Source of the DNA: an uncultured Lachnospiraceae bacterium
Lineage (GTDB): Bacteria; Bacillota; Clostridia; Lachnospirales; Lachnospiraceae
Assembly: GCA_947245585.1 (NCBI GenBank)
Contig: CAMXPV010000013.1
Coordinates: 1-64,000, forward strand
DNA length: 64,000 bases
Reading direction: 5' to 3'
Shown here: positions 19,886-48,813 of the stretch, one piece after another
Layout: each line of letters starts with the position of its first letter
Position numbering within the stretch: the stretch's first letter is position 1
Notes under the pieces: model-generated
The model's input: the letters and a program-made list of their open reading frames with translations, nothing else
Told to the model about the DNA's origin: nothing
The model's database searches: none
Translations under genes and position numbers: made by a program

Positions 19886-19901
19886 CATAGGATGAAAATG
19901 A

Positions 19902-19930
19902 GAAAAGGACGCGAAGGTGTCCTTTTCTTT
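19902..19930 (+). terminator. Intrinsic terminator of spoVG
   Basis: GAAAAGGAC (19902-19910) pairs with GTCCTTTTC (19919-19927) around an 8-base loop and is followed by TTT. Confidence 0.85.
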
Positions 19931-19982: not shown

Positions 19983-20011
19983 TTGACTTTTGATCATTAT
20001 GACAGTATACT
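19983..20011 (+). promoter_or_regulatory. Sigma-A promoter of the amino-acid ABC / ATP-grasp operon
   Basis: TTGACT, a 17-base spacer and TATACT. A 12-bp perfect palindrome TATACATGTATA (20030-20041) lies about 12 bases after the predicted start and could be an operator. Confidence 0.75.
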
Positions 20012-20130: not shown

Positions 20131-20856
20131 ATGATCAAATTGGAGAACGTCAACAAATATTTCGGGGATCTGCATGTGCTGAGAGATGTGAATTTGGAGG
20201 TGAAGGAGGGCGAGAAACTGGTGATTATCGGGCCCTCCGGTTCTGGAAAATCTACAACGGTTCGTTGTATGAATTTTTTGGAAGAACCAAACAGCGGACA
20301 TGTGTACATAGACGGAGAAGAATTGACCCACAGAAATAAAACGCAGCTTGTCCGCAGGACAACGTCCATGGTGTTTCAGCAGTTTAATCTGTATCCGCAT
20401 ATGACAGTGCTGAAAAATCTGGTATTGGCGCCGATGAAGCTCCACCATAAGAGCAGGGAGGAGGCGGAGGAGCTGGCGTACCATTATTTGGATGTGGTGG
20501 GACTGAGAGAGAAGGCGCATGTTTATCCGACCACGCTTTCCGGCGGGCAGCAGCAACGGATCGCGATTGCAAGGGCGTTGTGTATGCAGTCTAAGATCAT
20601 TTTATTTGACGAGCCGACATCGGCTCTTGACCCGGAGACGATTCAGGAGGTATTGGATGTGATGATCAAGCTCGCGAAGGAGAATATCACTATGGTAGTG
20701 GTAACCCATGAGATGGGATTTGCCAGACAGGTAGCCGACCGGGTGATTTTTATGGCGGACGGGCAGATTCTGGAGGAGGGAACGCCGGATCAGTTCTTTG
20801 AGAATCCGCAGAATGAGAGATTAAAGACTTTCCTAGGGAAAATCATTCGCAAGTAA
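20131..20856 (+). CDS. Polar amino-acid ABC transporter, ATP-binding subunit
   Basis: This 241-aa ATPase energises amino-acid import. It has Walker A GPSGSGKST near residues 34-42, the Q-loop VFQQFNLYPHMTVL near 84-97, signature LSGGQQQRIAIARAL near 137-151, Walker B ILFDEPTSALDP near 159, and switch His VVTHEM near 193. The pattern is that of the GlnQ/GltL group of polar amino-acid importers. The ATG at 20131 follows AGAGGGAA; an in-frame upstream ATG at 20035 lies inside the leader hairpin region and is unlikely. It is the first gene of a likely nine- or ten-gene operon. Confidence 0.95.
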   Translation: MIKLENVNKYFGDLHVLRDVNLEVKEGEKLVIIGPSGSGKSTTVRCMNFLEEPNSGHVYIDGEELTHRNKTQLVRRTTSMVFQQFNLYPHMTVLKNLVLAPMKLHHKSREEAEELAYHYLDVVGLREKAHVYPTTLSGGQQQRIAIARALCMQSKIILFDEPTSALDPETIQEVLDVMIKLAKENITMVVVTHEMGFARQVADRVIFMADGQILEEGTPDQFFENPQNERLKTFLGKIIRK

Positions 20857-20917
20857 AGGGCGGGTGTTTTCATAAATAAAAGGGAGCAAAAGATGCTTCA
20901 GAAAAGAGGAGAAAATT

Positions 20918-21871
20918 ATGAAAAAGAAAGTATTGGCGCTTGTATTGGGCGCGGCAATGGTAATGACAACGCTTACGGGCTGTGGGTCCGGGGAGAAGCC
21001 AGCGACGGCACAGGCTGCAGAAACGGCACAGGTGGCGGAGGAAGCGGCAGGGGAAGCGGGATCAAATTCCGAAGAGGCTGGCGCGAAGGAAACGGATGCA
21101 GAGGCGGCGAAGGATATTGCTTCTGCGGATGTGCAGGCGATTGTGGACAGAGGCGTGCTTCGGGTAGGCGTGAAAAATGCGGTGATCGGTTTTGGATTTC
21201 AGGATGAGCTGACAGGCGAGTATTCCGGCATGGAGATTTCTCTCGCAGAGAAAATTGCGGAATCCTTGGGCGTGGATGTGGAGTTTACCACAGTGACAGC
21301 AGCAACAAGAACGGAGCTGCTGGATTCGGGCGACATCGACTGTGTGCTGGCAACTTTTACGATCACCGATGAGCGTAAAGAAAGCTGGGATTTCTCCACG
21401 CCGTACTACACGGATTATGTGACGGTTCTGGTGCAGAAGGATTCAGGTATTGCAGGACTGGCGGATCTGAAAGACAAGAAAGTGGGCGTATCCTCCGGTT
21501 CTACTTCGGCGAGAAGCCTTGTGGCGGCCATGATTGAGAACGGTATCGTAAGCGGCGACGGTTTTGATACGGAGACTTTTGATCCGAGCACATGGACGGA
21601 CGGGATCAGCTTTGCACAGTATGACGATTATCCCACAATTTCTACAGCATTGAGCGCGGGCGAGGTAGACGCTTTCTGCGTGGATAAGTCCATTCTGGCA
21701 GTTTATCACACGGACGACCGCACTTATATTGAAGAAAAATTTGCGCCGCAGGAGTACGGCGTGGCTACGAAAAAAGGATCGGGCTTCAGCGCTTATGTGG
21801 ACGAATTGGTGACGGGCTGGTTGGCTGACGGCACGATCGACGGACTGATTGCGGAGAACGGGATCGAATAA
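20918..21871 (+). CDS. Polar amino-acid ABC transporter, substrate-binding lipoprotein
   Basis: The 317-aa protein has a lipobox (LTGCGSG) that puts the lipidated Cys at residue 22, then an Ala/Glu-rich linker to about residue 60. The periplasmic-binding-protein type 2 domain begins VQAIVDRGVLRVGVK and includes the typical ATFTITDERKESWDFSTPYY. This matches the family of Glu/Asp/Gln/Cys binding proteins; the ligand is not readable. It is 61 bases after the ATPase with GAGGAG before the ATG. It is anchored to the outer face of the membrane and delivers ligand to the two permeases that follow. Confidence 0.94.
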   Translation: MKKKVLALVLGAAMVMTTLTGCGSGEKPATAQAAETAQVAEEAAGEAGSNSEEAGAKETDAEAAKDIASADVQAIVDRGVLRVGVKNAVIGFGFQDELTGEYSGMEISLAEKIAESLGVDVEFTTVTAATRTELLDSGDIDCVLATFTITDERKESWDFSTPYYTDYVTVLVQKDSGIAGLADLKDKKVGVSSGSTSARSLVAAMIENGIVSGDGFDTETFDPSTWTDGISFAQYDDYPTISTALSAGEVDAFCVDKSILAVYHTDDRTYIEEKFAPQEYGVATKKGSGFSAYVDELVTGWLADGTIDGLIAENGIE

Positions 21872-21907
21872 CTGCGTGAGAAGAAATAAAGAGAGAAGGA
21901 GTTTAGT

Positions 21908-22633
21908 ATGGCCGGATTATTTTCAGCGAACGCATGGAATAAAGTATGGATTTACAGGGGCACCTTTTTGATGGGGCTTAAGAACACCGTGATTTCAGCG
22001 GGATTCGGCCTGCTTCTCTCCCTGTGTATCGGAATGATCTTGGGATTGTTTGCCACCAGCGGGAAAAAACCTCTGGCGGCAATCGCCAGAGCTTATGTGG
22101 AATTGATACAAAATACGCCGCTGCTTTTGCAGATGTGTTTTCTCTATTACGCATTGGCATTTTCGGGACACAGCTTAGGGATTTTAGTAACGGGCGTGTT
22201 GTCGCTCGGCATTTACCACGGCGCGTATGTGGCGGAGGTAGTGCGCGCGGGCATTGAGGCAGTTCCGAAAGGACAGTTTGAGGCGGCTTTCTCGCAGGGC
22301 TTCGGTTATCTTGGAAGAATGACTTATATTATCCTGCCCCAGAGCATCAAGGTAATTCTTCCGCCCATGGTAAATCAGGTGGTGAATATTTTCAAAAATA
22401 CCTCCTGCCTCTACATCGTGGGCGGCGCAGACCTGATTTCCATTACCTACAGTTTTGTGACGGGGGAGAACACGGGCGGCGCTTACGCGCCAGCGTATCT
22501 TGTGAGTGGTCTGCTGTTCTTCATAGTCTGCTGCCCGTTGTCTTCACTGGCGAGCATGTGGGAGATTTCTTTGAAGAAGCGGGAGGATCGGAGCGGCAGG
22601 ATGGATCGGAAGAGATCGGAAAGGGTGGCATAA
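21908..22633 (+). CDS. Amino-acid ABC transporter permease 1
   Basis: The 241-aa membrane protein has about five helices and the HisM/GlnP-type loop AEVVRAGIEAVPKGQFEAAFSQG split around residues 111-133, which contacts the ATPase. IYRGTFLMGLKNTVISAGFG is the usual N-terminal segment. GGAG precedes its ATG. It is 3 bases from the second permease, so the two likely form a heterodimer. The C-terminus carries a charged tail (KKREDRSGRMDRKRSER). Confidence 0.93.
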   Translation: MAGLFSANAWNKVWIYRGTFLMGLKNTVISAGFGLLLSLCIGMILGLFATSGKKPLAAIARAYVELIQNTPLLLQMCFLYYALAFSGHSLGILVTGVLSLGIYHGAYVAEVVRAGIEAVPKGQFEAAFSQGFGYLGRMTYIILPQSIKVILPPMVNQVVNIFKNTSCLYIVGGADLISITYSFVTGENTGGAYAPAYLVSGLLFFIVCCPLSSLASMWEISLKKREDRSGRMDRKRSERVA

Positions 22634-22636
22634 TTT

Positions 22637-23398
22637 ATGGAGACGATCAGAGGAAGCTTGTCTATCCTAACAAACGGCGCAGTTTTGCTCTATCTTTTGA
22701 AGGGCGTGGCCTTTACAGTTATCATTTCCCTGACGGCCGTGGTCATTGGCCTGTTGTTCGGATCAGTGTTAGCGCTCCTTCGGAATTATTGTAACAGCAG
22801 GAAAACGGCGATATTTAAGTGGCTGGCGGTAGCATACATAGAGATTTTCCGAAATACGCCGTTGCTTTTATGGATCTTTATTTGTTTGGTGTTCTGCCCC
22901 TGCCCGGAATTCTTAGGGCGGAAGATGTGGGGGCTTTCCTCCGCAGAAGTGAAGCTTTTATTTAAAACGGCGGTGGCGTTGATTTTATTTACGTCCTCTG
23001 TTATTGCAGAGATTGTCAGGGGCGGGCTGAATTCAGTGGCGGAAGGACAATTTGAGGCGGGACATTCGCAGGGGTTTAGCACGGTACAGATTATGCTTTA
23101 TATTGTGCTTCCGCAAGCCTATAGAAATATTGTGCCCACCCTGCTCAGCCAGATCATTACCACGATCAAGGACTCGTCCTATTTGGCGAATGTGGCGACG
23201 ATTGAATTGATGGCGAGGGTGAAAAAGATTTTGAGCTCGGCACAGAAATATAACGGTATGGGGACAGTCAACGTGTCGGATGTATTTGTGCTCTTCGGTT
23301 TTGCCTGCCTGATTTATTTTGCCATTAACTTTACCATTTCCTTTCTTGTTAGGAATATGCAGAAGAAGCGGAAGCGGGCGGTGCCAGTGAGAGCTTAA
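22637..23398 (+). CDS. Amino-acid ABC transporter permease 2
   Basis: The 253-aa second permease has the coupling loop IVRGGLNSVAEGQFEAGHSQ near residues 127-146 and about five or six membrane helices. IEIFRNTPLLLWIF is a conserved element of the family. It ends in a basic tail (MQKKRKRAVPVRA). No terminator separates it from the next gene 54 bases downstream, so the transporter is probably co-expressed with the peptide-bond enzymes that follow. Confidence 0.93.
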   Translation: METIRGSLSILTNGAVLLYLLKGVAFTVIISLTAVVIGLLFGSVLALLRNYCNSRKTAIFKWLAVAYIEIFRNTPLLLWIFICLVFCPCPEFLGRKMWGLSSAEVKLLFKTAVALILFTSSVIAEIVRGGLNSVAEGQFEAGHSQGFSTVQIMLYIVLPQAYRNIVPTLLSQIITTIKDSSYLANVATIELMARVKKILSSAQKYNGMGTVNVSDVFVLFGFACLIYFAINFTISFLVRNMQKKRKRAVPVRA

Positions 23399-23452
23399 AG
23401 ATCGTCAGAAAAAGGGAATATGACGAAAAGAAAAGCGGTAGGGAGAGACGGG

Positions 23453-24067
23453 ATGGAACAATATGTAATTACGATTTCAAGACAATTTGGGAGTATGGGA
23501 AGAACCATTGCCAAACAGATGGCTAGGGAACTTGGCATTGAATTTTACGACAGGGATATCGTGGAGGAGACTGCGAAGCGGATGGGGCTGCCGGTATCTG
23601 TGATCAGCGCCAAGGAGGAAAACGCCAATTCTATTTATTTTAGGAGGCAGTACCCTTTGGGGATGGGCGTTTCCAATATGCAGGACGAGATATTCAACAT
23701 TCAAAAAAATATCATAGAAGATCTGGCGAAGAAGGAGTCCTGCATTATTGTGGGCAGATGTGCGGATTCCATTTTAGCAGACAGCAAAAACCGGCTCAGT
23801 ATATATATCTATGCGCCTTATGAGAAGCGGCTGCAAAACTGTACGGAAATTTTAAAGATGGAAGAGAAGACGGCGAGAAAAATGATCCGGGAGGTGGATC
23901 GTTCCCGAGAACTGTACCACAGAAGATACTGTCCGGAATATACGGACGCTTTTTCCAACCGGGACGTCCTGATCGATTCAAGCCGTTTTGGAATAGAAAA
24001 AACAGCGGAGATTTTGGTGAAGCTGGTGTTGGATTTATATGGGGGCGTACTATGGACGAACGGATGA
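23453..24067 (+). CDS. Cytidylate-kinase-like protein
   Basis: The 204-aa protein has the P-loop-like ISRQFGSMGRTIAKQMA (near residues 6-22) and FYDRDIVEETAKRMG, features of the cytidylate kinase-like family (Cytidylate_kin2). The lid-like segment YEKRLQNCTEILKMEEKTA and the C-terminal ID.SRFG pattern also agree. Its true substrate is not established and it differs from housekeeping Cmk. ATG 23453 follows AGGGAGA at about 6 bases; upstream ATG 23420 has its site too close. It overlaps the ATP-grasp gene by 16 bases. Confidence 0.85.
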   Translation: MEQYVITISRQFGSMGRTIAKQMARELGIEFYDRDIVEETAKRMGLPVSVISAKEENANSIYFRRQYPLGMGVSNMQDEIFNIQKNIIEDLAKKESCIIVGRCADSILADSKNRLSIYIYAPYEKRLQNCTEILKMEEKTARKMIREVDRSRELYHRRYCPEYTDAFSNRDVLIDSSRFGIEKTAEILVKLVLDLYGGVLWTNG

Positions 24068-25383
24068 GCAGATTAGAACTGTTACAGCACACGGATGCGG
24101 TCAACGAGCTTCTGGCGCGTTACGGCGTGAAATTTGGTATCTATAAAAATAATGAATTTAGGGAGCAGCTTTTTCCATTTGACGCAATTCCAAGGGTGAT
24201 CGAGTGCGAGGAGTTCGCTTTTTTGGAGCGCGGCCTGAAACAGCGGGTTATAGCCTTGAATCTTTTCCTGAAAGATATTTACAGCAAAAAACAGATTGTA
24301 ATGGACAAGGTTGTGCCGGAGGATTTTATTTTTGCTTCCAGCGGTTATATGGCGGAGTGCGAGGGCGCCATGCCTCCCAAGGGGATTTACTCCCATATTT
24401 CGGGAATTGATTTGGTGAAGGGAAAGGACGGGGAGTGGTATATTTTGGAGGATAATCTGCGGGTGCCCTCCGGCGCTTCTTATCCCATGATTGCCAGAGA
24501 GTTCTGCAGAAGAAGTTCGCCCAATACCTTTCATGACAATCATCTGGAGGATAACAGAAATTATGCGGCGCTTTTGCGGCGGACGATGGACTATGTGAAT
24601 ACCGGCGGGCATACGGTGATCCTCACGCCGGGGAGATATAATGCGGCTTATTTTGAACATTCCTATCTAGCGGAAAAGACGGGAGCGCATCTGGTAAACG
24701 GTTCGGAGCTAATGGTAGAGGACGATAAACTCTATTACGTGGCGGTGGACGGACGAAGAGAGCGCGTAGGGGCGGTATACAGACGGATCTCAGACGAATA
24801 TCTGGACCCTATGAACTTTAAGCCGGAGTCGTTAATCGGCATTCCTCATATTTATGATGTGTTCCGCAAGGGCAATGTGGCGCTTATTAATGCGCCGGGC
24901 AACGGCGTGGCGGATGACAAGGGAATCTATTATTTTGTACCGAAGATGATTCAATATTACTTGAATGAGGAACCGATTTTGTCCAATGCACCCACTTACC
25001 TTCCTTTTTATGAGGAGGACATGCAGTATGTGCTCGCCCATTTTGACGAGCTGGTATTGAAGGACGTGGCGGAGGCCGGCGGCTACGGCGTGGTTTTCGG
25101 CAGAAGCATGTCGAAAGCGCAGAAGGAAGAATTTATCGCGTTGCTGAAAAAAGAGCCGAGAAGGTTTATCGCGCAGGAGATTATTGATTTTCAGGATCTG
25201 GATATCTTAGAAGAGGGAAGCGTGATTCCGCGGAAGGCGGATTTGAGGGCTTTTGTGCTGATGGCGGAAGAGCCCGTCGTTTGGAAAAGCGGTCTGACGC
25301 GGTTTTCCAGAAATCCCGATTCGTTCATTGTCAATTCATCGCAGGGAGGAGGATTTAAAGATACATGGGTATTATCTCAGTAG
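24052..25383 (+). CDS. Circularly permuted ATP-grasp protein
   Basis: The 443-aa enzyme is of the circularly permuted ATP-grasp type 2 group (DUF404/407 lineage). Visible blocks are GIDLVKGKDGEWYILEDNLR near residues 121-140, then VPSGASYPM, DDKGIYYFVPKMIQYYLNEE near 287, and VLKDVAEAGGYGVVFG near 337. The group is predicted to form amide or peptide bonds with ATP. It is regularly linked to Alpha-E and transglutaminase-like genes, exactly as here. The start at 24052 overlaps the previous gene and has no strong ribosome site, implying translational coupling. The substrate is unknown. Confidence 0.92.
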   Translation: MDERMSRLELLQHTDAVNELLARYGVKFGIYKNNEFREQLFPFDAIPRVIECEEFAFLERGLKQRVIALNLFLKDIYSKKQIVMDKVVPEDFIFASSGYMAECEGAMPPKGIYSHISGIDLVKGKDGEWYILEDNLRVPSGASYPMIAREFCRRSSPNTFHDNHLEDNRNYAALLRRTMDYVNTGGHTVILTPGRYNAAYFEHSYLAEKTGAHLVNGSELMVEDDKLYYVAVDGRRERVGAVYRRISDEYLDPMNFKPESLIGIPHIYDVFRKGNVALINAPGNGVADDKGIYYFVPKMIQYYLNEEPILSNAPTYLPFYEEDMQYVLAHFDELVLKDVAEAGGYGVVFGRSMSKAQKEEFIALLKKEPRRFIAQEIIDFQDLDILEEGSVIPRKADLRAFVLMAEEPVVWKSGLTRFSRNPDSFIVNSSQGGGFKDTWVLSQ

Positions 25384-26027
25384 AACAGGCGGACCGATTA
25401 TATTGGCTGGGAAGATATACGGAGCGGGTCTACACGACGCTTCGTATGTTTTGCCAAAGCTTTGACGTTATGATCGACGAGCTCAGGGACAGTTACAGTG
25501 AGTTTTGTAAAAAGATAGATATTCCCGATATTTATGAGGATAAAGATACTTTTTTGAAGATGTATCCCTTTGATCTGGAAAATTCCGATTCCATTATCAG
25601 TAATCTTGACAGGGCTTATGATAATGCGGTGGTGCTCAGGGAGAGCATCGGTTCCGAGGCGCTGTCCTACATACAGTTGGCGGTCTATGAAATGAATAAG
25701 GCCAGCGTCAGCAAAGCGCCGTTAATCGAGCTGCAGCATGTGATCGATGATCTGCTGGCTTTCTGGGGCATTGCGGACGATCAGATTGACTCGGAACAGA
25801 TTCGCAACATTATCAAAGCGGGCAAACGCATCGAGCGGATCGATCTCTATGCCAGATTAGGCGTGGCGGGACAGGAGCTGGCTCGGGAAGTGCATCGCAT
25901 GATTCCGCGGGTTGAGAGATGCGGTCTGGAATATGAGGCGGATCAATTGAAGCTGCTCAAAGAGTTGGCGGAAGACTCGGAACCGGACTATTACAGGATT
26001 GTGCGGGAAGTGGAGACGGTTTTATAA
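25365..26027 (+). CDS. Alpha-E domain protein
   Basis: The 220-aa all-alpha protein begins MGIISVEQADRLYWLGRYTE, the conserved start of the Alpha-E family (DUF403), with ERVYTTLRMF and the internal DNAVVLRESIGSEALSYIQ near residues 85-103. No catalytic motif is seen; the domain is thought to help the permuted ATP-grasp enzyme in peptide synthesis. It overlaps the ATP-grasp gene by 19 bases, a strong sign that the two products form a complex. Confidence 0.9.
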   Translation: MGIISVEQADRLYWLGRYTERVYTTLRMFCQSFDVMIDELRDSYSEFCKKIDIPDIYEDKDTFLKMYPFDLENSDSIISNLDRAYDNAVVLRESIGSEALSYIQLAVYEMNKASVSKAPLIELQHVIDDLLAFWGIADDQIDSEQIRNIIKAGKRIERIDLYARLGVAGQELAREVHRMIPRVERCGLEYEADQLKLLKELAEDSEPDYYRIVREVETVL

Positions 26028-26098
26028 GCGGATTCAGGCGATGATGCGCAATTTTGAGAGGAAGAGAAGACGAAAGAATTTATTTGATGGAGAACGCC

Positions 26099-26887
26099 AT
26101 GAAACGATTGAAGTTTGATTATTTTATGAAAATTGATTATTCGGAAGCGGTGTCTCTTTGCCATTTTACGATAAAGTGTTTTCCTCAAAACACAAAACGG
26201 CAGAGAGTGGAGGGCGTGTCCATTGCACTGTCGCCTGCCGTGCCTTACAGCATAGGAGCCGATTCCTTTGGAAACCGGCAGATATACGGGAGGGACGATA
26301 TTGCGCACCATAGCTTTTCTTTTCGGATCACGGGGAAAGCCCGCACGGGTCTTTCGGCATGGGAGGAGGACGCTGATGTCGATCAGACGGCAGTTTTTAG
26401 ATATCCCCACGGTTTGAATCAGGCGGGAGAAAGTCTGCGGGCTTACCATGATAAGATCGGGAAAGAACTGCCGGAAGACGTATACGGAAAAAGCTTGTGT
26501 ATCATGCACAGATTGTATCAGGACTTTACTTATGAGAAAGGCATCACCGATATGAATACGACAGCGGAGGAGGCTTTTTGTCTGGGAAAGGGCGTGTGTC
26601 AGGATTACGCGCATATCTTGATTGCCTTGCTCCAAATGGAGAGGATTCCCGCCAGGTATGTGACGGGTATGTTGATAGGCGAGGGAGCCAGTCATGCATG
26701 GGTGGAGGTTCTGCATGAGGGAAGATGGTATGGTCTTGATCCGACGAACGACAGTCCGGTGACGGACGCTCACATTAGAATCGGCGCAGGCAGGGAGGCT
26801 TCGGATTGCCTGATCAACCGGGGTATTATGCACGGCGGCGGTACGCAGGTACAGACCATAGAGGTGATTGTAAGCGAAGAGGATTGA
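26099..26887 (+). CDS. Transglutaminase-like cysteine protease/amidase
   Basis: The 262-aa protein shows a transglutaminase-core triad: Cys in LGKGVCQDYAHIL (near residue 168), His in ASHAWVEVLHEGRW (near 206) and Asp in YGLDPTNDSP (near 220). The N-terminal half is a beta-rich domain typical of the group found with Alpha-E and ATP-grasp genes. Members are expected to cleave or transfer amide bonds. No signal peptide is visible, so it should act in the cytoplasm. I chose ATG 26099 with GGAG 6 bases upstream; TTG 26054 and ATG 26087 are alternatives. Confidence 0.88.
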   Translation: MKRLKFDYFMKIDYSEAVSLCHFTIKCFPQNTKRQRVEGVSIALSPAVPYSIGADSFGNRQIYGRDDIAHHSFSFRITGKARTGLSAWEEDADVDQTAVFRYPHGLNQAGESLRAYHDKIGKELPEDVYGKSLCIMHRLYQDFTYEKGITDMNTTAEEAFCLGKGVCQDYAHILIALLQMERIPARYVTGMLIGEGASHAWVEVLHEGRWYGLDPTNDSPVTDAHIRIGAGREASDCLINRGIMHGGGTQVQTIEVIVSEED

Positions 26888-26907
26888 CGCTTCGGAACGG
26901 AGGAAAC

Positions 26908-27870
26908 ATGATTGAGACGGTAACGTCCATTACGCTGCCGGCGGATGAGACGCTTTTCATCAGGAAACAGCGGATCGAACCGAAAGAAAAGAGCGGCGTT
27001 GCAAAAAGAATCAGTATTGTGACAGGCATACATGGAGATGAGTTGGAGGGACAGTATGTCTGTTTTGAATTGTCCAGACGTATCAAGCGGCGGATGGATT
27101 GTTTGAAGGGGATAGTAGATATTTATCCGGCATTAAATCCATTGGGCATTGATTCCGTGACAAGGGGCATTCCGGCTTTTGACCTGGATATGAACCGGCT
27201 GTTTCCGGGGTGTCAGGACGGCAATATGACGGAATACTTGGCATCCAGGATTGTGCAGGATTTGTCTGGTTCTATGGTGGTACTGGATATTCACGCCAGT
27301 AATATTTATCTCACGGAGATTCCCCAGATCCGCGTCAACGAGCTGCATGAGAGGGAATTGGTCCCACTGGCGGCGGAGACGGGCGTGGATTTTATCTGGG
27401 TGCACGGCGCGAGCACAGTGTTGGAATCGACACTGGCCTACAGTTTAAACAGTACAGGCACGCCGACGCTTGTGGTGGAGATGGGTGTGGGAATGCGCAT
27501 TACAAAGTCTTATGGAGATCAGTTGGTGGATGGTATTTTACATTTGATGAAAAAGCTTGGTCTGTGGACAGGGGAGACGGCGGCTGTCAGAAAGCCTGTA
27601 ATCTCCAAAGATCCCGATGATGTGGCCTATCTCAATGCACCTGCCGGGGGCATTTTTGTGCCGGTTGTGAAGCACTGGGAATGTCTGCATAAGGGGCAGC
27701 TGATCGGCCAGATTATCGATCCGCTGGCAGGAATGGTGGTGGCTGAGGTGGCGGCGCCGATGGATGGGATTCTGTTTACGATCAGGGAATATCCGGTGGT
27801 GGACGAGGGATCCCTGATTGGAAGATTGCTTTGCAAAAAAGCCTGCGGACACCGTTGGGAGGAGAGATGA
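26908..27870 (+). CDS. M14-type succinylglutamate desuccinylase/aspartoacylase family protein (metal site intact)
   Basis: The 320-aa protein has the AstE/AspA zinc site: GIHGDELEG (near residues 35-43, His and Glu) and VVLDIHAS (near 124-131, second His). The substrate Arg lies in DLDMNRLFPG near 94 and the probable catalytic Glu in VVEMGVGM near 191. The final ~70 residues form a hammerhead/biotinyl-like barrel. Family members hydrolyse N-acyl amino acids or similar amides. It begins at ATG 26908 after GGAGG and ends in an ATGA overlap with its paralogue. It probably trims a product of the ATP-grasp/transglutaminase genes. Confidence 0.88.
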   Translation: MIETVTSITLPADETLFIRKQRIEPKEKSGVAKRISIVTGIHGDELEGQYVCFELSRRIKRRMDCLKGIVDIYPALNPLGIDSVTRGIPAFDLDMNRLFPGCQDGNMTEYLASRIVQDLSGSMVVLDIHASNIYLTEIPQIRVNELHERELVPLAAETGVDFIWVHGASTVLESTLAYSLNSTGTPTLVVEMGVGMRITKSYGDQLVDGILHLMKKLGLWTGETAAVRKPVISKDPDDVAYLNAPAGGIFVPVVKHWECLHKGQLIGQIIDPLAGMVVAEVAAPMDGILFTIREYPVVDEGSLIGRLLCKKACGHRWEER

Positions 27871-28799
27871 AAAAAGTTATCGTTTACGAGATAAAAGGAC
27901 TGTACCGGGACAACTTCCGGGTGACGGGCTATGAGTTTGGAGAAGGAGAAAAGGCTGTCTGTATTGTGGGGAGTATGCGGGGCAATGAGGTGCAGCAGAT
28001 GTATTGCTGCTCCCAACTGGTCAGGAAATTAAAGCAGATGGAGGCGGAAAGGAAGCTGACAGAGGGCCAAAAGATTTTGGTGATTCCCTGTGCGAATCCT
28101 TATTCGGTGAACACGCAGAAACGGTTTTGGCCGGTGGATAACACGGATATTAACAGAATGTTTCCCGGTTATCATCTGGGAGAAACGACACAGCGCATTG
28201 CGGACGGGGTATTTCAGGTGATTTCGGAATACCGGTTTGGCATTCAGTTCACTTCCTTCTATATGCCGGGAGAATTTATGCCCCATGTGCGGATGATGTC
28301 CACGGGTTTTGAAGATGCGCAGATTGCAAAGCAGTTTGGGATGCCCTATGTGGTGCTGCGGCAGGTGCGTCCTTATGATACGACCACTTTAAATTATAAC
28401 TGGCAGATTTGGGAGACGCAGGCTTTCAGCATGTATACCACAACAACCACCAGAGTGGATAAAAGGAGTGCGAAAGAAGCGATGCGCGGCATTCTCACTT
28501 TTATGAATAAGCAGGGAATTTTACAATACCATGGCCATGACGGGTACGTGTCCCTGGTGGTAAAGGACGGGGATATGGTTCCTGTCAGGACTGGCAGGGC
28601 GGGACTGTTTGATCCGCTCGTCACGGTGGGTACGGAGGTCGAGCGGGGACAGATTCTGGCGCGTATCATCGATGCCTATGAGGGGGAGGTGATTGAGGAA
28701 TTGCTCGCGCCGGTGGACGGGATTGTTTTTTTTATGCACGGGGAGCCGCTTACTTACTCAAACACGGCGGTGTTTAAACTGGTGGTGCGGGAGGAATAA
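27867..28799 (+). CDS. M14-type paralogue lacking metal ligands (predicted pseudoenzyme)
   Basis: This 310-aa paralogue of the preceding gene keeps the fold markers TDINRMFPG (near residue 97) and the C-terminal barrel (IIDAYEGEVIEELLAPVDGI). However, the zinc motif reads GSMRGNEVQQ instead of G-x-H-G-x-E, and the second His region reads GIQFTSFYMPG instead of LDIHAS. The Glu near the end is replaced by a Thr run (YTTTTTRV). Catalysis by the usual mechanism is therefore unlikely; a regulatory or scaffolding role with the active paralogue is inferred. The ATG at 27867 has GGGAGGAG upstream and overlaps the previous stop. Confidence 0.85.
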   Translation: MKKVIVYEIKGLYRDNFRVTGYEFGEGEKAVCIVGSMRGNEVQQMYCCSQLVRKLKQMEAERKLTEGQKILVIPCANPYSVNTQKRFWPVDNTDINRMFPGYHLGETTQRIADGVFQVISEYRFGIQFTSFYMPGEFMPHVRMMSTGFEDAQIAKQFGMPYVVLRQVRPYDTTTLNYNWQIWETQAFSMYTTTTTRVDKRSAKEAMRGILTFMNKQGILQYHGHDGYVSLVVKDGDMVPVRTGRAGLFDPLVTVGTEVERGQILARIIDAYEGEVIEELLAPVDGIVFFMHGEPLTYSNTAVFKLVVREE

Positions 28800-28833
28800 T
28801 TTTGGCCTGAAAAATTTTTTCACATAAAGCAAG

Positions 28834-28866
28834 TGCAGCTTTTCAGAAAAAAGGCTGCATTTTTTT
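28834..28866 (+). terminator. Intrinsic terminator of the ABC / ATP-grasp / M14 operon
   Basis: TGCAGC (28834-28839) pairs with GCTGCA (28854-28859), with further U-A pairs inside, followed by seven T residues. Confidence 0.85.
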
Positions 28867-45514: not shown

Positions 45515-46504
45515 ATGAAATATTATTTAAAAAGATGCACGCATCAGGAATTGGGAAGCGTTGTTGCGGGTGGAAAGCCACAAAGAGGAAGATATTTATT
45601 GACATCAATGAACGAAAATGTGCTGAGCATGTTTCCTCCATTGTCGAAAACGCAATTAAATGATTCAACTCTGCTGCCAATGATTCCATTATATTCAGGG
45701 AAAAAGATATATTGTAATTATGTGTATCATAATGATAAGTTTCACGGTTCGACAGCAAAACATCCGAGAAATGAATACAGAATATATCTGAATAAAGCAT
45801 TGGAAAATCACACCTGTTTATTTGAGACAAATGATATTATTATGATGCGTATGTCTTCTGTGATGGATGAAGAAAGCGGAGACATACAAAATATATATTA
45901 TTTGGATTATATCAGGAATCAAGAATCCAAATTATATAAAGAACTGAATTCAGTTATCGAGAACTCCCCGATATCAGGCGGGTATGGTATTTTTGAGGGT
46001 ACGATTGCAGAATTTGAAGAAAAAGTATCTCAAATGGGCATACCGGATGAATGCGAAGTTGAGATTGATGAGAGCGTTACAAACAGAATATCGTCTGCAG
46101 CAGATGCGGTGGCGGCATTATTTAATGCGACATCTTTCCGGGATTTTGTCATGGTAGGTTATAACCATCTATGCGCTATTACAGGCACGGTTATTCGGCA
46201 TGAATCCTATACGAATTTGGAAGCGGCGCATATTCGGCCAAAGAGTCATGGGGGATTATATCTTCCCAATAATGGAATAGCATTATGCCGGGATTTGCAT
46301 TGGGCTTTTGATAAAGGCTTTTTTACCTTGAATGATGAATTGGAAGTGGTTGTACATAAACAAGTGACAAGCGATTATCTGCAATCATTTAACGGTAAAA
46401 AAATAAGAGTGCCTCAAGATCCCTTTTTTGCGCCTGATTTGGAAAATGTGAAATATCACAGGGAAAATATTTTTGGATTGTTTCTTACAACAGGGAGACT
46501 ATAA
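45515..46504 (+). CDS. HNH-family type II restriction endonuclease
   Basis: The 329-aa protein ends in an HNH nuclease domain: CAITGTVIRH, EAAHIRPKSHGGLYLPNNGI and LCRDLHWAFDKGFFTL (about residues 220-290) supply the His-Asn-His metal site. The N-terminal ~170 residues (RCTHQELGSVVAGGKPQRGR, then PRNEYRIYLN and ETNDIIMMRM) resemble the B3-like DNA-recognition domains of EcoRII-N and relatives; that is an inference. It lies 13 bases before two cytosine methyltransferases, which strongly supports a restriction role. Base composition is AT-richer than the neighbours, suggesting transfer. Confidence 0.87.
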   Translation: MKYYLKRCTHQELGSVVAGGKPQRGRYLLTSMNENVLSMFPPLSKTQLNDSTLLPMIPLYSGKKIYCNYVYHNDKFHGSTAKHPRNEYRIYLNKALENHTCLFETNDIIMMRMSSVMDEESGDIQNIYYLDYIRNQESKLYKELNSVIENSPISGGYGIFEGTIAEFEEKVSQMGIPDECEVEIDESVTNRISSAADAVAALFNATSFRDFVMVGYNHLCAITGTVIRHESYTNLEAAHIRPKSHGGLYLPNNGIALCRDLHWAFDKGFFTLNDELEVVVHKQVTSDYLQSFNGKKIRVPQDPFFAPDLENVKYHRENIFGLFLTTGRL

Positions 46505-46517
46505 GGGGCGTATATTT

Positions 46518-47591
46518 ATGTATTATGCAATCGACTTATTTGCAGGATGCGGCGGTTTATCAAAAGGTTTTATGGATGCCGGATTTGAAGTGATCGTGGG
46601 GGTAGATAACGATCAGGCGGCGCTCAATACCTTTAAGCGAAATCATAACGGCGCGGAGGCATTGAACGCGGATCTTTCCAGGCAGGAAACATTTGATGAA
46701 ATAAAAAGAATTGCCGGTAATCGTAAAATTGATGTTATTATTGCAGGGCCGCCCTGTCAGGGCTTTTCTCTGACAGGCCCCAGAAATTTTGATGATAAAA
46801 GAAATAAGCTGTATTTAGCGGTATTTGAGATGGTAAAGCAGTATGCGCCGAAAGCGTTTGTCATAGAAAACGTACCGGGCATGGCAACCTTATACCAGGG
46901 GGAAATAAAAAAGGAAATTTTAAAAAGATTTGAAAAGCTGGGGTATAACGTGGAGGCAAAGATACTTTGTGCGGCCGATTATGGGATACCTCAAATGAGA
47001 AAAAGGCTTATTTTTATGGGAGTAAGAAAAGATATAGGAAAACCGGATTTCCCGCAGGCGACATTTGAGCCGGGACAGTATCGGTCATGCCGTGATGCGA
47101 TTAGTGATTTGCCGGCATTGATTGATACGTTAGGGGAGGAAGAGTGTCAATACACTTCTGAACCAATGTCAGAATATCAGAAAATGATGAGAAAGAATTG
47201 TACCGTATTGTACAATCATACGGCAACGAACCACACGCAAATGGTCAAAGAAACCATTGCATTGGTTCCGGAAGGCGGAAATTATAAGGATTTGCCAAAA
47301 GGAGTGGGGGAAAGCAGAAAGTTTAATGAAGCATGGACGAGGTACCATGGAGATAGGCCGTCGAGAACCATAGACACAGGTCATCGAAATCATTTTCATT
47401 ATGAATATAATAGAGTCCCGACAGTACGGGAAAATGCAAGATTACAGTCGTTCCCGGACAATTTTGTTTTTACCGGCACAAGAACACAACAATATCGCCA
47501 GGTTGGTAATGCGGTGCCGCCATTGTTGGGATATTGTTTGGGGAAAAAGGTGTTGGAAATTATAGCAAAAGAGGACGCTGCCAATGGTTAA
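46518..47591 (+). CDS. DNA (cytosine-5) methyltransferase 1
   Basis: The 357-aa enzyme has the m5C motifs in order: I DLFAGCGGLSKGF (residues 5-17), IV GPPCQGFSLTG with the catalytic Cys near 79, VI FVIENVPGM near 116, VIII QMRKRLIFMG near 160, and IX/X ARLQSFPDNF and GNAVPPLLGY near 312-340. The stretch between VIII and IX (about 165-300) is the target-recognition region. ATG 46518 follows AAGGGG. It should protect the host from the adjacent nuclease. It overlaps the second methyltransferase by 8 bases. Confidence 0.95.
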   Translation: MYYAIDLFAGCGGLSKGFMDAGFEVIVGVDNDQAALNTFKRNHNGAEALNADLSRQETFDEIKRIAGNRKIDVIIAGPPCQGFSLTGPRNFDDKRNKLYLAVFEMVKQYAPKAFVIENVPGMATLYQGEIKKEILKRFEKLGYNVEAKILCAADYGIPQMRKRLIFMGVRKDIGKPDFPQATFEPGQYRSCRDAISDLPALIDTLGEEECQYTSEPMSEYQKMMRKNCTVLYNHTATNHTQMVKETIALVPEGGNYKDLPKGVGESRKFNEAWTRYHGDRPSRTIDTGHRNHFHYEYNRVPTVRENARLQSFPDNFVFTGTRTQQYRQVGNAVPPLLGYCLGKKVLEIIAKEDAANG

Positions 47592-48813
47592 TACAATAGA
47601 TCTGTTTGCCGGCTGCGGAGGATTAACAGAGGGATTTAAGCAGTCAGGACGATATAATACGATATCGTGTGTGGAGTGGGATAAAGCTGCATGTGATACG
47701 CTCAGATACAATTTAAAAAAGAAATGGAACTATAACGATGCAGATAAAAGGGTAGTCAGGTTTGATATTCAGAGAACAGAGGAACTGCTCAGTGGTTGGT
47801 GTGACGATGAATATGGGGAATCGGAGGGATTGGATTCTTTGACAAGAAGTTATGGCGGCAATGTGGATCTCATTATTGGCGGTCCGCCTTGTCAGGCATA
47901 CTCCGTTGCCGGCCGTATTCGTGACAAAGATGGAATGAAAAACGACTATAGGAATTATCTGTTTGAAAAGTATTTAAACATTGTGCAGCACTATCAGCCA
48001 AAGGCTTTTGTTTTTGAAAATGTTCCGGGGATTCTCAGCGCGCGTCCTGGCGGAGGCGACGAGCTGATCATCAATATTATCAGGGAAAAATTTGAAAATG
48101 CAGGGTACATGATACTTGATGATCTTAACAAAGCGGTTATAGATTTCACAGAGTATGGCGTTCCCCAGAAAAGAAGCAGGGTCATCATTTTGGCGCTTCG
48201 CAGGGATTACTATAGCAATCCGAAATCATTACTTGAAAAATTTTATCATGAAATTTTGCCATCCAAGAAGTGCGGGCGGGTGACTACGGTGCGTGAAGCT
48301 ATTGGTGATTTACCGGCGCTTAAACCTCTTGAAAAGCCTGTAAAAATGGATGGCAAGACATATTCGCATTCATTTTTACCTGAGGACTTTCGCATAAAAA
48401 ATCATATACCAAGGTTTAGCAACTTAAGAGACATTGAAATTTTTAAGCTGTTGACAAAGGACATTGAGCAGGGGAATAATCAATATGTATCTGCTGAAGC
48501 TCTGAAAAATCTGTATACTAAAATTACGGGTAAAGAATCCAATGTGCATAAGTACCATGTGATCCGGTGGGATGAGCCCAGTAACACGATTCCGGCACAT
48601 TTGTATAAGGATGGATTGAGGCATATTCATCCGGATTCGGAGCAGGCACGGACAATAACGGTGAGAGAAGCAGCGAGACTTCAGACATTTCCTGACGATT
48701 ATGAATTTATAACCGGTACGGCTGCGGATTATAAAATGATTGGAAATGCGGTTCCGCCGTTATTTGCCAAATTATTGGCGGATAGTATATATGAGCTTTT
48801 ATTTCATGAATAG
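47584..48813 (+). CDS. DNA (cytosine-5) methyltransferase 2
   Basis: The 409-aa enzyme has motif I DLFAGCGGLTEGF (residues 5-17), IV GPPCQAYSVAG near 101, VI FVFENVPGI near 142, VIII QKRSRVIILALR near 194 and IX/X ARLQTFPDDYEF and GNAVPPLFAK near 362-395. It is clearly different from the first methyltransferase, with a longer insert between motifs I and IV and a distinct recognition region. Two cytosine methyltransferases with one nuclease usually means an asymmetric site, each enzyme modifying one strand. It overlaps the first gene, so expression is coupled. Confidence 0.95.
   Translation: MVNTIDLFAGCGGLTEGFKQSGRYNTISCVEWDKAACDTLRYNLKKKWNYNDADKRVVRFDIQRTEELLSGWCDDEYGESEGLDSLTRSYGGNVDLIIGGPPCQAYSVAGRIRDKDGMKNDYRNYLFEKYLNIVQHYQPKAFVFENVPGILSARPGGGDELIINIIREKFENAGYMILDDLNKAVIDFTEYGVPQKRSRVIILALRRDYYSNPKSLLEKFYHEILPSKKCGRVTTVREAIGDLPALKPLEKPVKMDGKTYSHSFLPEDFRIKNHIPRFSNLRDIEIFKLLTKDIEQGNNQYVSAEALKNLYTKITGKESNVHKYHVIRWDEPSNTIPAHLYKDGLRHIHPDSEQARTITVREAARLQTFPDDYEFITGTAADYKMIGNAVPPLFAKLLADSIYELLFHE

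Follow-up and report, generated by a model that had tools for sequence, protein, structure and literature searches.

Background

The genes for a circularly permuted (CP) ATP-grasp ligase, an Alpha-E protein and a transglutaminase-like protein form a system which reportedly goes back to Iyer et al. (2009), and which is said to include the Anbu operon. In the cited parts of two studies (PMC6376114, PMC5666114), these genes accompany the gene for Anbu and have no defined function; Anbu showed no detectable peptidase activity, the ATP-grasp protein of the Anbu operon frees phosphate from ATP, and protein tagging is the role proposed for the operon. Another family of relevance here, CphZ, consists of beta-Asp-Arg/Lys dipeptidases, according to the cited part of a third study (PMC10206079). 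In this paper, we analyse a locus at positions 20131-28799 of a 64,000-nucleotide (nt) stretch of contig CAMXPV010000013.1 (GCA_947245585.1), hereafter the window, from an uncultured Lachnospiraceae bacterium. In this locus an ATP-grasp/Alpha-E/transglutaminase-like triad is followed by the genes for two M14 proteins of the AstE/AspA type, M14a and M14b, and is preceded by the genes of a polar amino-acid importer. We have found that the triad and the two M14 genes form a conserved five-gene cassette, in which M14a keeps the zinc-ligand and catalytic residues of its family while M14b has lost two of the zinc ligands and the catalytic glutamate, and that the importer is an optional attachment to this cassette.

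A conserved five-gene cassette

The ten open reading frames (ORFs) of the locus lie on the forward strand and form two modules. Module 1 (24052-28799), the cassette, is grasp-alphaE-tgl-m14a-m14b, and encodes the CP ATP-grasp ligase (24052-25383; PF14403, E 1.4e-134; PDB 3n6x, E 3.1e-109), a short Alpha-E protein of 220 aa (25365-26027), the transglutaminase-like protein Tgl (26087-26887; PF01841), M14a (26908-27870) and M14b (27867-28799). Module 2 (20131-24067) encodes a PEB1a-like importer and a cytidylate-kinase-like protein.

Relatives were collected with the ATP-grasp protein of the window as the query in samples of 397 genomes from the family, 246 from the order, 245 from the class and 249 from the phylum, and it matched 60, 17, 6 and 6 genomes respectively, including the window's own genome and some partial or weak matches. 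To these were added 80 named loci, the best 80 of 357 when ranked by how similar their ATP-grasp is in identity to that of the window; they are biased to close relatives, a bias of which the 397-genome family sample is free. Dropping ten near-identical duplicates reduced the set from 148 to 138 loci; loci in which the ATP-grasp match was shorter than 300 aa (decayed or cut) had been left out. All five cassette genes are present in 105 of the 111 distinct ATP-grasp loci that have at least 5 kb of downstream sequence. The six incomplete ones are a locus without M14 genes (L129), one with ATP-grasp only (L164), one with ATP-grasp and alphaE (L165), and three distant loci (L179-L181) that have ATP-grasp and Tgl with no M14 match, two of them also matching alphaE weakly. 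The remaining 27 loci, with 5 kb or less downstream, include 16 complete and 11 incomplete cassettes, which brings the complete cassette to 121/138 loci overall, in a nearly fixed gene order. All ten genes in the order of the window are seen in only 8/138 loci (L013, L014, L015, L017, L023, L049, L062 and L136), among which L049 and L062 have an inserted FUSC gene, and the solute-binding protein gene of L014 has an apparent in-frame stop.

An earlier reading of the window from its sequence alone (the sequence-only reading) had described a single operon joining amino-acid import, the ATP-grasp module and paired M14 amidohydrolases. The ten co-directional genes and the families assigned to them are borne out by the ORF list and Pfam, except that the cytidylate-kinase-like gene had been left out of its title, and the M14 genes are indeed co-conserved with the ATP-grasp module; as a unit of relatives, however, the five-gene cassette takes the place of the ten-gene operon.

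The ATP-grasp protein is the best conserved of the five cassette proteins, with a median identity of 0.80 versus 0.36-0.63 for the others and with a conservation of 97% or more in 279 of 443 columns (81 sequences), which suggests that ligation is central to the function of the cassette. Its gene overlaps alphaE by exactly 19 nt in 80/80 named loci and in 42/45 further relatives, when the start is taken as the ATG nearest the expected place. The Alpha-E protein of the window covers positions 6-165 of the 294 in PF04168, as against 1-294 for the triad Alpha-E of L180. In Tgl, the columns of Cys171, His203 and Asp218, which we take to be its catalytic triad, are kept in the window and at least 97% conserved among 75 sequences. 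Furthermore, partial rank correlations of pairwise distances in 104 complete cassettes were 0.49 for grasp-alphaE and 0.42 for m14a-m14b, and 0.04-0.34 for the other pairs, a pattern that suggests two putative complexes, one of ATP-grasp with Alpha-E and the other of M14a with M14b.

Two side observations concern the distribution of the cassette. In seven fetched loci of the family (L167-L173), the cassette genes are matched only in part, and three of these genomes have stops within the region that matches ATP-grasp; this suggests that the cassette has decayed in situ in some lineages, unless the assemblies are faulty. In L027 and L174, contigs of one length (84,235 bases) and so probably one record, the cassette ATP-grasp is 85-86% identical to that of the window and the genome is classed in another order, so that either a recent transfer or a chimaeric metagenome-assembled genome (MAG) may be involved.

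An intact hydrolase and its zinc-less twin

For the comparison of the M14 proteins, the cassette rows were non-redundant and 0.85-1.3 times the query length, and the standalone rows, from loci without ATP-grasp, were 270-420 aa long. M14a (PF24827, E 8e-22, with the ORF searched from 26899) keeps H42, E45, H129 and E191 in 112/112 cassette sequences, i.e. the HxxE...H arrangement and the glutamate that we take, from the AstE/AspA family, to be the zinc ligands and the catalytic residue. M14b, whose gene overlaps m14a by 4 nt, is related to the same family both by sequence (AstE_AspA_cat, E 1.9e-14) and by fold: its AlphaFold model (pLDDT 83.6, from 17 sequences, with residues 86-100 and 170-176 under 50) matches 3cdx (E 1.2e-20), DoeB (6twm, E 2.3e-19) and CphZ (8eip, E 2.6e-18). 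The HxxE...H motif and the catalytic glutamate are nevertheless missing from it. Among 145 M14b rows (108 from cassettes and 37 standalone), the first zinc ligand is arginine (R38) in all, and the second, glutamate, is kept in all; the third-ligand position, 129, is occupied by Thr, Ala, Ser, Pro, Gly or Arg and never by His, with a His two residues upstream in three rows; and the catalytic position, 190, is Tyr in 144 and Phe in one. The counterparts of what are presumably the substrate-binding residues of the family are largely retained, N96 in 145/145, R86 in 138/145 (seven Lys) and R97 in 142/145 (three Lys).

The second of the two proteins that had been described as amidohydrolases is therefore predicted not to be one: by its sequence, M14b is a conserved pseudoenzyme encoded next to M14a, with neither the catalytic glutamate nor the first and third zinc ligands. 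M14b is, on the same kind of evidence, not decaying, because 102 of its 310 columns are at least 97% conserved (72 sequences) and it has conserved residues of its own. As M14b lacks, in the relatives examined, the metal-binding residues on which catalysis depends, its role is probably that of a partner subunit and not of an enzyme. It might alternatively have been re-purposed as an enzyme with a new chemistry, either metal-free or with a relocated metal. Such a role would agree with its own conserved residues at positions where M14a differs (W88, N92, Q127, Y132, H140, Y190 and H291) and with a conservation about equal to that of alphaE (median identity 0.56 each); but residues of this kind are equally expected at a binding interface, and a metal site is not evident from the sequence, and we regard a new chemistry as unlikely.

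The M14 pair outside the cassette

The M14 genes are not confined to the cassette. In the 397 family genomes, the M14b query matches 105, some of them weakly, compared with 60 for ATP-grasp. We fetched 37 M14b loci without ATP-grasp, a number that is not their total, and M14a adjoins M14b in 35 of them; of the two misses, L214 is cut by a contig end and L226 has no M14a. Since the pair is found without ATP-grasp, its function cannot wholly depend on that protein. In a tree of 98 M14b sequences (61 of the 108 cassette rows and all 37 standalone rows), five changes of the cassette label are required, and well-supported branches force four or more of them; thus the triad and the M14 pair have joined or parted more than once.

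We also noted that purL (FGAM synthase) lies in the stretch of 24 of the 37 standalone loci (L194-L230), directly downstream of m14b in 19, an annotation that was checked with Pfam in one; it is possible that this setting of the M14 pair is the ancestral one.

The importer and other neighbours

The importer of module 2 consists of an ABC ATPase (20131-20856; PF00005), for which GlnQ is the best NCBIfam model at 310 bits, below the cut-off of 379, a solute-binding lipoprotein (SBP; 20918-21871; PF00497) and two permeases (21908-22633 and 22637-23398; PF00528 each). The nearest solved relative of the SBP is PEB1a (2v25, E 1.5e-42). Its residues K86, R131, R153 and D256, which by PEB1a numbering we take to be contacts to the ligand, aspartate, are kept in 16, 15, 16 and 16 of the 16 rows compared, which include the near-duplicates L015 and L119. 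These results support a predicted ligand of the aspartate/glutamate type, in line with the acidic amino acid that had been suggested as the import substrate, although in the cited part of one study the SBP family is considered too diverse for safe ligand prediction (PMC6069109).

The importer lies beside the cassette in 11/138 loci, on the upstream side in all but L060, where it is downstream; compared with the control loci, i.e. the 37 standalone M14 loci, of which none has it, this frequency is not significant (p=0.12). The importer and the cytidylate-kinase-like gene, cmk2 (23453-24067; PF13189, E 2.3e-48), occur together and apart from the cassette in three cassette genomes (L231-L233), and in L231 a FUSC gene follows them. 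The cytidylate-kinase-like gene thus goes with the importer, and the border between the modules is the junction after it, cmk2/grasp, where the genes of the window overlap by 16 nt; the gap at 23398-23453, where a transcript break had been considered, lies between permease 2 and the kinase gene, both in module 2. Among 30 genomes with and 30 without ATP-grasp, chosen by us, close SBP orthologs (at least 65% identity) are found in seven of the former and in none of the latter (best 44%; Fisher p=0.0105, uncorrected for relatedness). The 30 ATP-grasp genomes include one, G269 (locus L129), in which ATP-grasp has no neighbouring M14 genes. The co-conservation of the transporter that had been expected is therefore weak but real, and the locus is best described as a five-gene amide cassette with an optional acidic-amino-acid importer.

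It could be argued that the importer lies beside the cassette by chance, given that it adjoins so few cassettes and is encoded elsewhere in the three genomes mentioned above. The distribution of close SBP orthologs speaks against this, as does the position of the importer, which is found on either side of the cassette and so suggests more than one joining event; we consider a chance association possible, with the odds clearly against it. A further alternative is that the operon serves salvage only, i.e. that it imports and degrades an aspartate or glutamate conjugate, and that ATP-grasp makes an unrelated or transient intermediate. The presence of an importer together with hydrolases and the often free-standing M14 pair would fit such a role, but the ATP-grasp protein is the best conserved of the five and the importer is missing beside the cassette in 127 of 138 loci, which makes salvage alone improbable.

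The commonest cassette neighbour that is neither a core gene nor part of an ABC transporter is FUSC, the product of which has a FUSC_2/ArAE membrane domain fused to a HAD-type hydrolase domain (e.g. L049:8725-10035). It lies beside 25/138 cassettes versus 0/37 control loci (p=0.0026), and beside eight of the 11 importer-bearing cassettes (in L023 on the opposite strand) versus 17 of the 127 without an importer (p=5e-5). Across the 30 + 30 genomes, FUSC orthologs with at least 42% identity were found in 8/30 versus 2/30, which is not significant (p=0.08), and the genome of the window has no close ortholog, only a partial match of 25% identity. Other neighbours are not significantly enriched relative to the 37 control loci, which have none of them: a C26 gamma-glutamyl-hydrolase-type gene (7/138), a RelA/SpoT-domain gene (9/138), a Cys/Met pyridoxal-phosphate enzyme (6/138) and an aminotransferase (5/138).

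Several other candidates were set aside. A link to citrate and 2-oxoglutarate looked enriched in the first 80 loci (seven with citrate synthase and nine with isocitrate dehydrogenase), and after deduplication the two genes were each found in 6/138 loci, above the length expectation of 0.78 (Poisson p 1.6e-4 each); it was dropped, and is not used below, because the control loci have citrate synthase in 1/37 (p=1) and isocitrate dehydrogenase in 0/37 (p=0.35). In L053 a citrate synthase gene lies inside the cassette, between alphaE and tgl, and in L061 one follows alphaE at a contig end. Cyanophycin as the substrate was rejected since the cyanophycin synthetase CphA (TIGR02068) is above cut-off in 0/30 genomes, all 30 having weaker matches (best 168.8 versus 850 bits). 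A reading as a defence system was likewise abandoned, as PADLOC gave no hit for ATP-grasp, Tgl or the kinase.

Organization and flanks of the locus

The ten genes encode, in order, an ABC ATPase, SBP_bac_3, two BPD_transp_1, Cytidylate_kin2, CP_ATPgrasp_2, Alpha-E, Transglut_core with Bact_transglu_N, and two AstE_AspA_cat proteins, separated by 61, 36, 3, 54, -16, -19, 59, 20 and -4 nt. A promoter-like site, TTGACT-17-TATACT, is present on the forward strand at 19983-20011 (10/12 matches, spacer 17), where the sequence-only reading had placed the promoter; as promoter-like sites overall (19) are not above shuffles (15.6 +/- 3.2), this call is based on position and consensus and not on statistics. 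Terminator-like sites overall are above shuffles (21 versus 10.4 +/- 3.4). The strong terminator that had been placed after the operon was confirmed as an intrinsic-terminator-like hairpin of 13 pairs with a T-rich tail at 28831-28862, the only one on the forward strand with more than seven pairs in the scanned stretch; weaker ones of 5-7 pairs are intragenic, at 20253, 22735, 22968, 23522, 23930, 24206 and 26377. A hairpin of 10 pairs after the spoVG-like gene (19901-19928), listed on the reverse strand only, is a possible upstream boundary. Rfam gave no match in the window at the gathering threshold.

The flanking genes, named by sight, are glgC, glgD and a spoVG-like gene upstream, and pth and mfd downstream. 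The upstream trio is also found beside the operon in L013, L014, L015 and L017, all of them named relatives, whereas pth and mfd are matched downstream in L013 only. This relative is a MAG from an uncultured member of the Lachnospiraceae; it shares with the window all ten genes and their surroundings, and its ATP-grasp is 98% identical to that of the window. Elsewhere in the window, at 45515-48813, an HNH-type endonuclease gene precedes two C5-cytosine methyltransferase genes that are in tandem and overlap; together they resemble a type II restriction-modification system with a pair of methylases.

Proposed function

We propose, with a probability of about 0.5, that ATP-grasp and Alpha-E form an amide on an acidic-amino-acid compound, that the Tgl-like protein and the M14a.M14b pair cleave it, and that the importer feeds the pathway or recovers the amino acid. 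In more detail, the permuted ATP-grasp and the short Alpha-E would activate a carboxylate and form an amide, the product of which may be a glutamate- or aspartate-containing small molecule or an isopeptide. The Tgl-like cysteine hydrolase and an M14a.M14b heteromer would cut this amide again; within the heteromer, M14a would be catalytic, and M14b might hold the substrate or its carboxylate and control or shape the active site, as in other active/inactive protease pairs. The ABC importer would supply or recover the acidic amino acid, and the FUSC-HAD membrane protein encoded beside some relatives may move the product. That an amide-linked metabolite is built and then hydrolysed, as first suggested, we infer from family chemistry, as we do the direction of the reactions, their substrate and the complexes; the two hydrolases of AstE/AspA type in that suggestion have become one.

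Alternatively, the cassette might modify proteins or peptides, with ATP-grasp and Alpha-E ligating an acidic residue or a peptide to a protein, and Tgl and M14a, with or without M14b, removing it. The occurrence of the same triad with Anbu elsewhere, for which tagging is proposed in the cited parts of the Anbu papers (PMC6376114, PMC5666114), lends some weight to this possibility, as does the inclusion in the M14 fold of peptide-trimming carboxypeptidases (structure match e.g. 4oko). No recurrent candidate target protein is found in the neighbourhood, however, FUSC being the commonest other neighbour. Moreover, M14a is nearest to AstE/AspA/DoeB-type proteins, the characterised members of which act on small N-acyl amino acids. 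We therefore hold protein modification to be a minority possibility. The alternatives of a new M14b chemistry and of a chance importer concern single parts of the locus and overlap with these readings of the whole.

Several points weigh against the proposed cycle of amide formation and cleavage. Relatives share ancestry, and the counts and p-values do not come from independent events; the 30 + 30 genomes are not a random draw; the substrate of the cassette is only inferred; most cassettes have no adjacent importer; and citrate synthase is encoded by 57/60 genomes irrespective of the cassette. The M14 pair is found in many genomes without ATP-grasp. Furthermore, the first zinc-ligand histidine of M14a has been lost in 5/35 and R97 in 12/35 standalone rows, as against 0/112 in cassettes, so that catalysis may be dispensable in standalone loci, where some lineages may have a pair with no active member. 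Because no such loss is found in the 112 cassette rows, we read the same figures as a stricter need for M14a catalysis in the cassette than in standalone loci.

A more specific form of the amide cycle, which we put forward as speculative and rather unlikely in all its parts, is that M14a.M14b is an obligate catalytic/pseudoenzyme heteromer of AstE/AspA type that selectively opens gamma-glutamyl or beta-aspartyl amides, and that together with ATP-grasp and Alpha-E it would constitute an undescribed reversible store or signal based on an acidic amino acid in anaerobic gut Firmicutes, M14a.M14b replacing Anbu. The amide cycle lends itself to a concrete assay, in which M14a, alone or together with M14b, would release aspartate or glutamate from candidate amides; the attached importer provides a hint to the substrate.

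Comparison with known systems

The cassette shares with the Anbu-type operon the CP ATP-grasp, Alpha-E and Tgl-like genes, adjacent and in the same order as in the cited parts of the published descriptions of the triad. It differs in having m14a and m14b in the position of the Anbu gene, i.e. a hydrolase of a family with known amide chemistry and its conserved dead twin, and in its shorter Alpha-E. No match to PF00227 (Anbu, proteasome fold) at E <= 0.001 was found in the 30 ATP-grasp genomes, compared with 10/14 control genomes that were positive, and the ATP-grasp of the window is only 40-44% identical to those of three distant loci without M14 genes. Our literature searches, which did not cover Iyer et al. 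(2009), where a mention is possible, found no description of an M14-paired cassette with a shortened Alpha-E.

With the AstE/AspA family, including DoeB/EutE (6twm) and 3cdx/2qj8, M14a shares its sequence and its zinc and catalytic residues, and M14b its fold. M14b differs from the family in lacking two zinc ligands, and the two proteins in being nearly always paired; DoeB, an N-acetyl-diaminobutyrate deacetylase, also differs in that the TIGR02994 cut-off of 402.7 bits is far above the scores of M14a (56) and M14b (46.9). The cyanophycin dipeptide hydrolase CphZ (8ein/8eip) is similar in its AstE/AspA-type fold, in the isoaspartyl amide that is its substrate, in a weak sequence match to M14a (E 3e-4) and in the model match to M14b; the differences are that none of the 30 genomes has a cyanophycin synthetase above cut-off and that M14a is paired with a predicted pseudoenzyme. 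The SBP resembles the PEB1a/GlnH-type aspartate/glutamate binding proteins in its sequence and, presumably, in its ligand-contact positions, and differs from them in being linked to a cytidylate-kinase-like gene and the cassette.

As active/inactive pairs, we take TldD/TldE and the mitochondrial processing peptidase to be proteases that likewise combine a catalytic subunit with a zinc-less homolog, although they belong to families other than that of the M14 pair. Ecm14 of fungi is, in the cited part of one study (PMC7706225), a conserved M14 pseudopeptidase without peptidase activity; it differs in belonging to the eukaryotic metallocarboxypeptidase branch, and that part makes no mention of an obligate active partner. 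An active/inactive pair within the AstE/AspA family was not found in our literature searches, and a conserved zinc-less AstE/AspA subunit, if true, would add a new example to the bacterial metallohydrolase pseudoenzymes. Taken together, the ATP-grasp/Alpha-E/transglutaminase-like triad is already known, and what appears to be new here is an M14 catalytic/zinc-less pair in place of Anbu, together with a shortened Alpha-E.

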